NCBI RefSeq assembly: GCF_027859075.1
Contig: NZ_JAQIBL010000327.1
Coordinates: forward strand, 1 to 32,679
DNA length: 32,679 bases
Source of the DNA: Oceanispirochaeta sp.
GTDB lineage: Bacteria > Spirochaetota > Spirochaetia > DSM-2461
Direction: 5' to 3'
A program made the translations under genes and the position numbers. How positions within the stretch are numbered: position 1 is the stretch's first letter; every line of letters begins with the position of its first letter. The notes beneath the pieces are model-generated. The model saw only the letters and a list, made by a program, of their open reading frames with translations. It searched no databases and was not told where the DNA came from. Of this stretch, positions 5,316-26,307 are shown piece by piece.

Positions 5316-5612
5316 ATGTTTGAAGTACGCCAGACAGAAACATACAAAAAGTGGTTTAAAACGCTAAGGGATCGAAGAGCAAGAGCGCGAATTGATATTC
5401 GCATTAAACGGATATCATTAGGAAACCTTGGTGATGTAAAATCCGTAGGAAGGGGAGTTTTTGAACTTCGAGTAGATTATGGGCCAGGATACAGGGTTTA
5501 CTTTGTAGAAAGAAATGAAATTAGAATCATCCTATTAGCAGGGGGAAAGAAATCCACTCAAAAAATGGATATAAAAAAAGCACAAGAACTGGCCCGATTG
5601 GTGGAGGATTAG
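5316..5612 (+). CDS. RelE/HigB-like toxin of a type II toxin-antitoxin pair
   Basis: A 98-residue basic protein of the 'addiction module killer protein' group within the RelE/ParE superfamily, which typically cleaves mRNA on the ribosome. Family features are the N-terminal VRQTETYKKWFKTLRDRRARARI, the central GDVKSVGRGVFELRVDYGPGYRVYF and the C-terminal LLAGGKKSTQKMDIKKAQELA. In this group the GXXKXXGXGVXELR and GPGYRVYF segments form the sheet with the basic active-site residues. The antitoxin gene begins two bases after its stop codon, giving the toxin-first order typical of HigBA-like pairs. The ribosome binding site is weak. It lies in the patchwork region beside gltA fragments, consistent with an acquired stabilising cassette. 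Confidence 0.9.
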   Translation: MFEVRQTETYKKWFKTLRDRRARARIDIRIKRISLGNLGDVKSVGRGVFELRVDYGPGYRVYFVERNEIRIILLAGGKKSTQKMDIKKAQELARLVED

Positions 5613-5614
5613 AA

Positions 5615-5920
5615 ATGAAAAAAGAAAACACTACTTTCTGGGATCCCGTAGAACATTTCAATAACGAAGAAGATATTGCAGCTTACCTGGAAGCAGCATT
5701 TGAGGAAAATGACACATCTCTAATAGCGGCAGCACTTGGTGATATCGCCCGTGCTAAAGGTATGTCTAAAATTGCTGAAGATACAGGCCTCGGTCGAGAA
5801 AGTTTGTACAAAGCTTTGTCTCCGTCCGGAAACCCAGAGCTCTCAACAGTCTTAAAAATAATCGAAGCACTCGGTTTACATTTGCAAGCTGTTCCAAGAA
5901 GAATAAAGCATGCTGGATAG
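5615..5920 (+). CDS. HigA-like antitoxin (addiction module antidote protein)
   Basis: A 101-residue partner of the preceding toxin. The N-terminal part (WDPVEHFNNEEDIAAYLEAAFEEND) is the usual toxin-neutralising segment of this family. Residues from about 38 to 90 form an Xre-like helix-turn-helix (ALGDIARAKGMSKIAEDTGL, then GRESLYKALSPSGNPELSTVLKIIEALGL). GGAGG lies eight bases before the ATG and within the end of the toxin gene, so the two are co-translated. By analogy it binds the toxin and represses the pair's own promoter. The second gltA fragment begins 17 bases after its stop codon. Confidence 0.9.
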   Translation: MKKENTTFWDPVEHFNNEEDIAAYLEAAFEENDTSLIAAALGDIARAKGMSKIAEDTGLGRESLYKALSPSGNPELSTVLKIIEALGLHLQAVPRRIKHAG

Positions 5921-5937
5921 TAATAATGTGGTTCATT

Positions 5938-6032
5938 AAGAGGCGGCCCTGCAAGATGAGTATTTCATCGAAAGATGGATTTTCCCACAGAGATGTTCAC
6001 TCTACTCTTCGCCATGGGGCGAATGTCCGGGC
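5938..6032 (+). pseudogene. gltA 3' fragment A (internal deletion, frameshifted)
   Basis: These bases match gltA 3866-4008. A 49-base segment is missing, removed between two short AGAGA-type repeats (gltA 3901-3949), so the catalytic Asp codon is lost and the frame shifted. One extra T is present at 6026. The remaining differences include K-to-Q, G-to-D and V-to-L changes, so the piece is not under coding constraint. It and fragment B (7559-7680) together cover most of the gltA 3' end and flank the ATPase gene. Confidence 0.85.
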
Positions 6033-6085
6033 AATGCCCGATGTATTCCTGTGGGAAGGAAATTTTTTACAAATTGAGAATTGAA

Positions 6086-6114
6086 TTGACAGAATGTAAA
6101 GCCATAGCTACTAT
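6086..6114 (+). promoter_or_regulatory. Predicted promoter giving a leaderless ATPase mRNA
   Basis: TTGACA (6086-6091) and TACTAT (6109-6114) are 17 bases apart. The predicted transcription start falls on or within a base or two of the ATG at 6121, and there is no Shine-Dalgarno sequence before that ATG. Confidence 0.5.
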
Positions 6115-6120
6115 GAAACC

Positions 6121-7275
6121 ATGATCCAAAGAACTGCGGAAGCAACCCTCCACCGCCTTGCCAAAGGGTTTCCTGTCATTTGTGTAACCGGACCAAGGCA
6201 ATCAGGCAAAACGACCCTTGCCAGGAAAGCTTTTCCCCATAAATCCTATTTATCTCTTGAAGATCCCGATATAGCACGCCTTGCCCGCGAAGATCCCCGA
6301 GGACTTTTAGATAGATATAAAGGGGGCCTGATACTCGATGAAGCTCAGGCTGTTCCGGAAATTTTTGTGTATCTGAAAACAGTAATAGATAAGGATACAA
6401 CTCCCGGCCGGTATATTGTAACCGGTTCCCAGCAGTTCAATTTGCTTAACCATGTGACTGAATCCCTAGCAGGCAGGGCGGCGTTCTTGACGTTGTATCC
6501 TTTTTCAGTACAGGAACTCAAAGGTGCCGAAATAACAATACTTGATCCCTTTGAGACAGTTCTGAAAGGGTTTTATCCTCCTTTATTTGATCGTGATGTA
6601 ACTCCTTATGATTGGTATACAAACTACATTTCATCATATATTGAGCGGGATGTCCGTTCTGTGATTAATGTAAAGGATTTGGGTCAATTCCAGACCTTTG
6701 TAAAGATGTGTGCTTCCCGGGTCGGGCAATTGGTGAATTTGAGCGCTTTAGCTATGGACTGCGGAACTACACATAACACGGCCAAAGCATGGCTTTCTGT
6801 ACTCGAATCGAGTGGCATTATCTTTTTTCTGAAACCGTATCACAACAACTTTGGAAAACGGCTGGTAAAAAGTCCAAAGATCTACTTTATTGATACCGGC
6901 CTCCTATGCAGGTTGCTTGGCATAAATGATGCGGAACAACTGTTCTTACATCCAAACAGGGGTAATGTTTTCGAAAGTTTTGTTGTTGCCGAAATGTTGA
7001 AGAATCGTCTCAACAAAGGGCTTACACCTGAATTATACTTCTGGCGGGATAATACAGGAACTGAGATTGATGTTGTGTATGAAGATGGAAAGGTAATCCG
7101 GTCGGTCGAGATTAAGTCGGGAAAGACGTTCACAACAGATTTTGCATCTGGTCTCGAAAAGTGGATGCGCTATTCTGGTGAGGCTCCGGAGACCTGCTCT
7201 ATAATCTATGCAGGAGAAATGGAAATAAAAATGAAGGGAATTGCTCTGAAAAAGTGGGATTCTGTGGATTTATAG
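6121..7275 (+). CDS. AAA+ ATPase with C-terminal DUF4143 (AAA_14 family)
   Basis: A 384-residue ATP-binding protein of the widespread AAA_14-DUF4143 family, whose biological role is poorly defined. Visible are a Walker A at 24-31 (GPRQSGKT), a Walker B at 69-74 (GLILDE, followed by AQAVPE), and a sensor-like TGSQQ at 101-105. The DUF4143 part (from about 165) includes YIERDV, a winged-helix-like section (LVNLSALAMDCGTTHNTAKAW) and IYFIDTGLL. The C-terminus resembles a PD-(D/E)XK nuclease fold with E285, D317, E330 and K332 in order (NVFESF, TEIDVV, VEIKSG); whether it cuts DNA is unknown. The start lacks a ribosome binding site and is probably read from a leaderless mRNA. Members are often found with toxin-antitoxin and mobile DNA. 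Here it lies within an interrupted second gltA tail, so it was probably inserted. Confidence 0.93.
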   Translation: MIQRTAEATLHRLAKGFPVICVTGPRQSGKTTLARKAFPHKSYLSLEDPDIARLAREDPRGLLDRYKGGLILDEAQAVPEIFVYLKTVIDKDTTPGRYIVTGSQQFNLLNHVTESLAGRAAFLTLYPFSVQELKGAEITILDPFETVLKGFYPPLFDRDVTPYDWYTNYISSYIERDVRSVINVKDLGQFQTFVKMCASRVGQLVNLSALAMDCGTTHNTAKAWLSVLESSGIIFFLKPYHNNFGKRLVKSPKIYFIDTGLLCRLLGINDAEQLFLHPNRGNVFESFVVAEMLKNRLNKGLTPELYFWRDNTGTEIDVVYEDGKVIRSVEIKSGKTFTTDFASGLEKWMRYSGEAPETCSIIYAGEMEIKMKGIALKKWDSVDL

Positions 7276-24182: not shown

Positions 24183-25091
24183 ATGAACAACTACCAGATC
24201 AAACAGTATTCTGAACAATTCGCAGACAAGTCGATCACCATCAATCCCTATATCATGAAGAAACTGGGGATCATCAAGGCAAAGAGTCTTATTCGGATCA
24301 ACGACTACCAGCTGGTGTGCGTACCCTATACCATATCCCTTTCTGACTGCCGGATTCTCCTGATCCTCAGCCCTAAGGAACAAAGCATCATCACCGAGGG
24401 GAGTAAAGGGAACATCATGCTTCACCTCGAATTCCATCACCCTAACCTGGATAAAGATATTCCCCTGTTTTTCAGGATCGCCATCAAAAGTTTCAAACAG
24501 CTGAATACCCGTCTGAACCAGTGCCTTCTGGAAGCCTCTCTTCTGACTGTCCCTCAGGATTACAGAGAGATCCTCCTGGAGTACTTCCTGAAGAATGAAG
24601 AAAATCTAACCATTTACAAAGATCCTGAGTTGAGTGAAAAAATTGTGACTGCAAAGCAGTTTGAGCCTCTCAAAATGAAGAAACAGGGATTCATCCGATT
24701 CAGCAACGACCTCAAGCTGCACTGCCGCATCATCACAACCAGCTTACAGAAAATTGTTCTCTTTATTGATACTGAGGAGTCAATTCTAAAGTCTCCTCCT
24801 GAAAAGATCATCCTCGAAATAATACTGGCAGGAGATCCCTTCTTTATAAATTCCTCTTTCCTGGATTACAGTGTATCCACAGAAGTAGAAGGATTTTTCA
24901 TTGTCAGTCTGAAGTTAGAGTATTCTTCTATTCTGACGGAGGGATTAGCACCTCTTCTAAAAGGTGAGAAGATACCTCAGGAGGAAACAATTAAGGAAGA
25001 GAAACCCATTGATGAATCTTCCGTCAGGGATGAGGAAGCAGAAGAAAATAGTGATGCCGACGACGTCCTGGAGGAATCACCCGTTTCCTGA
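24183..25091 (+). CDS. Conserved-looking protein of unknown function with acidic tail
   Basis: A 302-residue soluble protein that I do not recognise with confidence. Residues 1 to about 255 are a mix of beta-strand-like and helical segments (LVCVPYTISLSDCRILLILS, KGNIMLHLEFHHP, FIRFSNDLKLHCRIITTSLQ, KIVLFIDTEE, EKIILEIILAGDPFF, TEVEGFFIVSLKLEY). The last 35 to 40 residues are strongly acidic and probably unstructured. The alternation of short strands and the repeated 'LHxxF/LHCRII' units recall PilZ-like c-di-GMP proteins that are common in spirochaetes, but the RxxxR and D/NxSxxG motifs of active PilZ domains are not visible. The ribosome binding site GGGGA and own promoter support expression. 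It has no evident operon partner. Confidence 0.75.
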   Translation: MNNYQIKQYSEQFADKSITINPYIMKKLGIIKAKSLIRINDYQLVCVPYTISLSDCRILLILSPKEQSIITEGSKGNIMLHLEFHHPNLDKDIPLFFRIAIKSFKQLNTRLNQCLLEASLLTVPQDYREILLEYFLKNEENLTIYKDPELSEKIVTAKQFEPLKMKKQGFIRFSNDLKLHCRIITTSLQKIVLFIDTEESILKSPPEKIILEIILAGDPFFINSSFLDYSVSTEVEGFFIVSLKLEYSSILTEGLAPLLKGEKIPQEETIKEEKPIDESSVRDEEAEENSDADDVLEESPVS

Positions 25092-25133
25092 TTGAATTTG
25101 TCTCTCTTTGACTCAGAACTACCCCTTCAAATA

Positions 25134-25169
25134 TGGGTCATAAGCACCCATCGTGGTCATTATGACCCA
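25134..25169. promoter_or_regulatory. Upstream activator site candidate (paired inverted repeats)
   Basis: TGGGTCATAA (25134-25143) and TTATGACCCA (25160-25169) form a perfect 10-base inverted repeat with a 16-base spacer. The second arm is itself part of GGTCATTATGACC (25155-25167), a perfect 5-3-5 palindrome. The cluster lies about 160 bases upstream of the sigma-54 promoter, where enhancer-binding activators usually bind. It has no U-tract and follows the preceding gene by about 45 bases, so a terminator role is less likely. Confidence 0.6.
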
Positions 25170-25325
25170 GTTTCGTTAAATACTTGAGGCTTTGACTCAA
25201 AAAGACACAGTCCAGATACTTCTTACCCATTTACAGTCCTTAATATCGACAAACCACAAGACAAGCCCATCAATTAAAATTATTATTTTCTTTATACATA
25301 TATATTTAAAAACTTAAAATAATAG

Positions 25326-25341
25326 TTGGCACGCCTTATGC
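25326..25341 (+). promoter_or_regulatory. Sigma-54 (RpoN) promoter of the hsp20 operon
   Basis: TTGGCACGCCTTATGC has the -24 GG and -12 GC exactly 12 bases apart and matches the TGGCACG-N4-TTGC consensus in all but one base. Transcription would start near 25353, about 33 bases before the ATG of the first hsp20 gene. An RpoN promoter requires an ATP-driven activator, which fits the upstream repeats. Confidence 0.75.
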
Positions 25342-25385
25342 ATTATAGAGTATCAGAAACATAAAAATAATCTGGAGGTACAGAT

Positions 25386-25834: not shown

Positions 25835-26236
25835 ATGAACAATATAGTAGTACGAAGAAATCCTGCACCCGCTGTTAATGCCTGGAAAGGATTAAACAGA
25901 ATGTTTAATGATGAGAACAGTGCCTTTGAGGCTGAACCCCGCAAACCCGTGGTCCATGTGGAAAACGAAGAGTCCCGGGTGGTCCTCACAGCAGAACTTC
26001 CCGGTTTCGGATCTGATGACCTGGATATACAAGTCAATGAAAACCTGCTGACCATCAAGGCTCTTAAGAAAGGCGATAAGAAGGAAGAAGAAATTGTCGT
26101 CTTTGAAAGAAGCTTTGTCCTTCCGGAAGACCTGAAAAGGGAAGACATCCAGGCCGAAATGAAGAATGGACTACTGACACTGGATCTTCCCCGCAAGGAG
26201 AAACCTGCTCCTCTGGCCATTAAGGTCAAAGGTTAA
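25835..26236 (+). CDS. Small heat shock protein (Hsp20/alpha-crystallin), second copy
   Basis: A 133-residue paralogue of the preceding protein. I choose ATG 25835, seven bases after GGAGG, rather than the upstream ATG at 25811. The alpha-crystallin domain is very similar to that of the first copy (KPVVHVENEESRVVLTAELP, GFGSDDLDIQVNENLLTIKA, FERSFVLPEDLKREDIQAEM, KNGLLTLDLPRKEKPAPLAI), but the charged middle loop is shorter and the N-terminal arm differs. Such tandem pairs often form mixed oligomers, as IbpA and IbpB do in E. coli. A strong terminator follows. Confidence 0.95.
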   Translation: MNNIVVRRNPAPAVNAWKGLNRMFNDENSAFEAEPRKPVVHVENEESRVVLTAELPGFGSDDLDIQVNENLLTIKALKKGDKKEEEIVVFERSFVLPEDLKREDIQAEMKNGLLTLDLPRKEKPAPLAIKVKG

Positions 26237-26280: not shown

Positions 26281-26307
26281 AGCCGGGATTTTTCCCGGCT
26301 TTTTTTA
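26281..26307. terminator. Intrinsic terminator after the hsp20 pair
   Basis: AGCCGGGA (26281-26288) pairs perfectly with TCCCGGCT (26293-26300) and is followed by a run of T. It lies between the end of the hsp20 operon and the oppositely oriented isomerase gene. On the minus strand a shorter A/T-rich stretch follows, so it may also act on the opposite transcript. Confidence 0.9.

Follow-up and report, generated by a model that had tools for sequence, protein, structure and literature searches.

A putative Rrp2-sigma-54 enhancer and promoter upstream of a tandem hsp20 operon in Oceanispirochaeta, with a proposed regulon across the Spirochaetia

The window, that is, the whole 32,679-nucleotide stretch of Oceanispirochaeta sp. 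DNA that was analysed, carries a tandem pair of small heat-shock protein (sHsp) genes preceded by a sigma-54-type promoter and a series of upstream repeats (Table 1). Both genes were assigned to the Hsp20 family by Pfam or NCBIfam matches together with homology, in agreement with the tandem operon proposed in a preliminary description of this DNA; the product of the second gene is 60% identical to that of the first and gives NCBIfam Hsp20-type matches. A strong stem-loop followed by a T run lies 3' of the pair. The regulatory element had been placed at 25134-25341, which is correct as far as it goes, the element beginning earlier, at 25099. Elsewhere in the window (5316-5920) there are small ORFs, one of which encodes an addiction-module antidote protein (PF21716) and is probably part of a toxin-antitoxin pair.

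Table 1. Features of the hsp20 operon and its upstream region (window coordinates)
Feature	Coordinates	Strand	Remarks
PilZN3-domain protein gene, upstream neighbour	24183..25091	+	Pfam PF20424, 7.5e-12; stop about 8 bp before dyad 1
UAS dyad 1, TGTCTCTCTTTGACTCA	25099..25115	+	-227 from start of -24 element; dyad scans, weight matrix (PWM)
UAS dyad 2, TGGGTCATAAGCACCCA	25134..25150	+	-192 from start of -24 element; repeat of the preliminary description; PWM score 13.5
UAS dyad 3, GTGGTCATTATGACCCA	25153..25169	+	-173 from start of -24 element; dyad scans
UAS dyad 4, TGACTCAAAAAGACACA	25193..25209	+	-133 from start of -24 element; PWM score 13.7, best in window
Sigma-54 -24/-12 promoter, TTGGCACGCCTTATGCA	25326-25342	+	Near-consensus; equivalent site at 30/30 sHsp loci of the class
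Predicted transcription start	25353	+	Placed from the -12 GC and promoter geometry
hsp20 gene 1, 142 aa	25386..25814	+	Pfam HSP20 PF00011, 3.5e-16
hsp20 gene 2	25835..26236	+	Start by homology and ribosome-binding site; ORF open from 25811
Intrinsic terminator, AGCCGGGA-TTTT-TCCCGGCT-T(n), operon end	26281..26307	+	Read directly; absent from the list of a simple scan

The promoter, TTGGCACGCCTTATGCA, has the exact GG-N10-GC spacing that had been claimed for it and departs from the consensus once, with ATGC in place of TTGC. A search of the window for TTGGCACGNNNNNTGCW allowing up to 2 mismatches returned this site as the sole match, with 0 mismatches, and it is among just 6 exact TTGGCAYN6TGCW sites across the 4.36-Mb genome. 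The host is a spirochaete with an rpoN gene, as had been supposed: a 463-aa open frame matches PF04552 at 8.6e-56. HrcA/CIRCE control of the operon was considered and rejected, since a search of the window that tolerated 3 mismatches found no CIRCE operator (TTAGCACTC-N9-GAGTGCTAA). No strong sigma-70 promoter stood out near the operon.

Conservation of the promoter was assessed using the first Hsp20 as a query against 61 genomes of the class, 55 of which gave matches; from each of 30 genomes the best sHsp locus was then examined in its correct orientation. Every one of these loci carries a -24/-12 site scoring at least 15 of 17.3, which precedes the start of the protein match by approximately 60-150 bp. 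In the class, this sHsp therefore appears to be under sigma-54 control as a rule, and the earlier remark that RpoN control of small heat-shock genes is uncommon is not supported there. Among eight extra sHsp loci taken from small genomes, six have a sigma-54 site; Borrelia turicatae has none, and the locus of G032 was not properly scored, its open frame overrunning the promoter region. That the -24/-12 likeness is accidental and the operon is driven by a sigma-70 or HrcA-type promoter is barely credible: the few weak sigma-70-like matches close by could be cited for it, the promoter's presence at 30 of 30 loci contradicts it, and the missing CIRCE element counts against it. In G002, another and more distant tandem pair of sHsp genes (L295, G002:C1 ~119200-122200) likewise has a sigma-54 site and a dyad; this pair seems to be missing from the window genome.

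Enhancer-type repeats do lie upstream of the promoter, as the preliminary description had stated, but their unit had been misjudged and two of the four copies missed. The genome scan that it had suggested, using its repeat GGTCATTATGACC, gave hundreds of matches and was too loose to be of use; that unit was therefore dropped and replaced by a 17-bp dyad of consensus TGTGTCANNNTGACACA, which occurs four times. NtrC-type enhancers are tandem dyads approximately 100-200 bp upstream of the promoter, bound by an enhancer-binding protein (EBP) with a Fis-type HTH; the dyads described here resemble them in this layout and differ from them in sequence (TGTGTCA-N3-TGACACA) and in a characteristic 40-bp spacing. 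The right half of dyad 1 is kept as TTGACWCA in four other members of the genus, and dyads are found at the place equivalent to dyad 2 in G002, G003 and G004. Dyad 3 is separated from dyad 2 by 19 bp and from dyad 4 by 40 bp, the latter spacing recurring class-wide. With a matrix built from other genes outside the genus, the score of dyad 4 was equalled in 1 of 1000 dinucleotide shuffles. The regulon list for the window genome rests on pattern scans, in which the other dyad-like matches inspected (L055, L057-L060) were mostly intragenic and had no strong sigma-54 site beside them.

The dyads are likewise a property of the class. Across the 30 sHsp promoters, the 300-bp upstream regions together contain 43 dyads at a score of at least 17 of 22, against 0.63 expected from dinucleotide shuffles, a count for which the motif had been picked after viewing the same sequences. 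A cleaner test was therefore made with an independently trained PWM, derived solely from 24 upstream regions of the sigma gene described below, all outside the genus. This matrix found a site at 30/30 sHsp loci, each matched by at most 1% of 1000 shuffles. Distances between dyads at these loci are quantised, falling at 40 bp (17 pairs), 19 bp (7), 59 bp (7) and 54 bp (4).

A second target was revealed by the sole perfect dyad in the window genome (contig C128), which, with another dyad 40 bp away, precedes a gene for a 281-aa group-2 sigma-70 protein. The protein contains Pfam regions 1.2, 2, 3 and 4 and reaches no NCBIfam cut-off for RpoD, RpoS or RpoH. Immediately upstream of the start of its gene lies TTGGCACGGTATTTGTA, and groES is a neighbour. 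The gene is near-universal in the class, with matches at 1e-60 in 59 of 61 genomes, a few of them through RpoD alone. Orthologues fetched from class genomes have the promoter in 30/30 cases and at least one dyad at a PWM score of at least 9 in 28/30, and the dyad-to-dyad distance is exactly 40 bp in 23 of 24. As a control, the best 80 loci of the sigma protein family, obtained by scanning an independent collection with the sigma protein, were examined. Those from Spirochaetota (named as Spirochaetes or Treponema relatives, 18 scorable) had the promoter in 16/18 and dyads in 14/18, and the group-2 sigma loci from outside the class, one Leptospiraceae locus included, had neither promoter nor dyads (0/60 for each).

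The window genome contains 10 clear EBPs. To these were added EBPs collected from 16 small or key genomes, and the resulting tree contains one response-regulator clade (support 99/99) to which every one of the 17 genomes searched contributes a single member. In G031, G036, G056 and G044 this member is the only EBP. Since G044 is Borrelia turicatae 91E135 (100% plasmid identity), its only EBP is Rrp2, and the clade carries that name here. G036 has dyads at both the sHsp and the sigma promoters, and G031 and G056 have them at the sigma promoter, more weakly in G056; no other exact sigma-54 site in these three genomes was clearly paired with dyads. In G058, G033 and G053, approximately 4 kb separates the Rrp2-clade gene from the sigma gene, and the order holB-hk2-rrp2 is common to B. 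turicatae, G002 and G036. The G002 and B. turicatae proteins contain receiver, sigma-54 AAA+ and Fis-type HTH domains (Pfam), and the HTH recognition segment NKSKxAExLxIGRKTLHxK is preserved, Borrelia included. The single-EBP genomes, the co-occurrence, the shared gene order and the preserved HTH segment led us to assign the dyads to the Rrp2 orthologues: by exclusion and co-occurrence, the Hk2/Rrp2 response regulator is most likely the activator. The stress-sensing activator that the preliminary description had supposed to be undescribed would thus fall in a named family, its DNA site and the hsp20/sigma regulon being the new elements.

Some observations count against this assignment. B. turicatae has Rrp2, yet carries neither dyads at rpoS nor a sigma-54 site at its sHsp gene. 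Every dyad in the window differs from the consensus at several bases, and the rrp2 orthologue of the window genome itself (L065, G000:C171, ~5793-6293, minus strand) has two in-frame stops, TGA and TAA, one codon apart in the ATPase domain before the Walker B region (...FELSG*G*IFLDE...). The gene is intact in G002, of the same genus, and the window genome is a 364-contig draft assembly; the stops may reflect either an assembly error or a broken activator in this strain, whose hsp20 switch would, if they are real, be without its activator. The apparently broken rrp2, the number of EBPs in the genome and the presence of an NtrX-like regulator approximately 4.5 kb from rpoN (C191) would suit an alternative in which promoter and dyads are real and a different EBP, such as the NtrX-like one, binds the dyads. 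We consider this unlikely: G036, G031 and G056 retain dyads at the targets with an Rrp2-clade EBP only, and among the sampled genomes the NtrX-like clade was recovered just in the window's family. The NtrX-like protein was set aside because the sole EBP of the single-EBP genomes belongs to the Rrp2 clade.

A further alternative dispenses with an enhancer altogether, the dyads being bound by a repressor or nucleoid protein and Rrp2 acting from solution, as at Borrelia rpoS, where its activation is enhancer-free (PMC1976401). A homodimeric repressor could fit the dyads. Tandem arrays approximately 90-220 bp upstream of the -24 element at fixed 40- and 19-20-bp spacings are nevertheless the layout expected for EBP sites, and the dyads accompany the sigma-54 promoters of two unrelated genes, which makes binding by a non-EBP regulator very improbable.

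On sequence comparison, we regard it as highly probable that this region serves as enhancer and promoter within an Rrp2-sigma-54 regulon spanning the class. The reading rests on the promoter, on dyads that are conserved and regularly spaced, on a second target with the same elements, and on the presence of rpoN and of a co-occurring activator. In the model that we propose, the sensor kinase Hk2 would phosphorylate Rrp2 in response to a signal that may be protein-damaging or redox stress, and Rrp2 dimers would bind the TGTGTCA-N3-TGACACA dyads, set at their fixed spacings of 19-20 and 40 bp approximately 90-220 bp upstream. The AAA+ ring of Rrp2 would then touch and open the sigma-54 RNA polymerase sitting at TTGGCAC-N5-TGC, so that the two Hsp20 chaperones would be produced on demand. 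Through the same kind of site Rrp2 would also turn on the group-2 sigma-70 factor, which would widen the response. We take the system to be a class-wide version of a familiar arrangement, the EBP/sigma-54 regulon, with an activator most likely from a known family; its DNA site is newly defined here, and its targets are new. Both the dyad site and the hsp20/sigma regulon appear to be undescribed in the literature searched, in which few subscription papers were covered and no description of either was found.

The nearest known system is that of Borrelia, in which Rrp2 and RpoN activate rpoS and no enhancer is required within the 238 bp of DNA upstream of it (PMC1976401). The two have in common an orthologous activator, the gene order holB-hk2-rrp2 and a sigma-70-family gene preceded by a sigma-54 promoter. 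They differ in that the Borrelia rpoS promoter is free of dyads, which are present at the targets described here, and in that the B. turicatae sHsp gene is without a sigma-54 site, though Rrp2 is present. At B. turicatae rpoS we found the sigma-54 site TTGGCATGATTTTTGCA and no dyads, which agrees with the reported enhancer independence (PMC1976401). Borrelia RpoS was rejected as an orthologue of the dyad-bearing group-2 sigma factor (p-AU 0.00026; RpoS is a long branch). B. turicatae RpoS groups instead (100/99) with other sigma-70 proteins, L253 (G001), L248 (G007), L259 (G010) and L250 (G020), all from the window's family, whose genes have sigma-54 sites and lack dyads. These proteins are possibly true relatives of Borrelia RpoS; the long branch makes the grouping a lead and not a result. 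An ancestral Spirochaetia stress circuit can be imagined, in which Hk2/Rrp2 acted through 40-bp-spaced enhancers on the sHsp and the group-2 sigma factor. The Borrelia virulence cascade would be an offshoot that kept the Rrp2 recognition helix, became enhancer-free and uses another sigma lineage, one whose relatives elsewhere have sigma-54 sites and no dyads. We judge the case for such a history to be evenly balanced. How the sigma-54-sigma-S cascade of Borrelia arose becomes testable in harmless free-living relatives; that Rrp2 works without an enhancer in Borrelia has long been an oddity.

A 2025 paper describes the Rrp2 of Treponema denticola as unstudied and the kinase Hpk2 as responsive to oxygen (PMC12070737). 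By its name and description, this Rrp2 is a response regulator of the sigma-54 type from within the class, and it very probably belongs to the same family; it differs in that PMC12070737 gives neither a dyad site nor targets. The present analysis supplies a candidate DNA site for Rrp2, together with a list of targets and a collection of orthologues, and it suggests how a whole bacterial class controls its small heat-shock proteins. Outside the class, E. coli ibpB is a sigma-54-dependent sHsp gene. A 2025 survey of sigma-54 regulons assigns the chaperone cluster that includes an sHsp to Planctomycetota and Bacteroidota, and its passage on chaperones does not name Spirochaetia for this cluster (PMC12316311). 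These cases resemble the present one in placing chaperone or sHsp genes under sigma-54, and differ in that no common activator or site is shown.

Other EBP-associated loci were encountered in the same genome. At G000:C297 3400-3570 (L009, L067, L288), a sigma-54 promoter with palindromes of the TGTGTAAC-N-GTTACACA type precedes a gene for a substrate-binding protein, which is divergent from its own, different EBP gene, and this is apparently a separate EBP regulon. At G000:C94 51114-52228 (L061, L003), a consensus sigma-54 promoter lies between a gene for a GAF-type EBP and the following gene, whose product starts like an ammonium transporter; this arrangement looks like ordinary nitrogen regulation.
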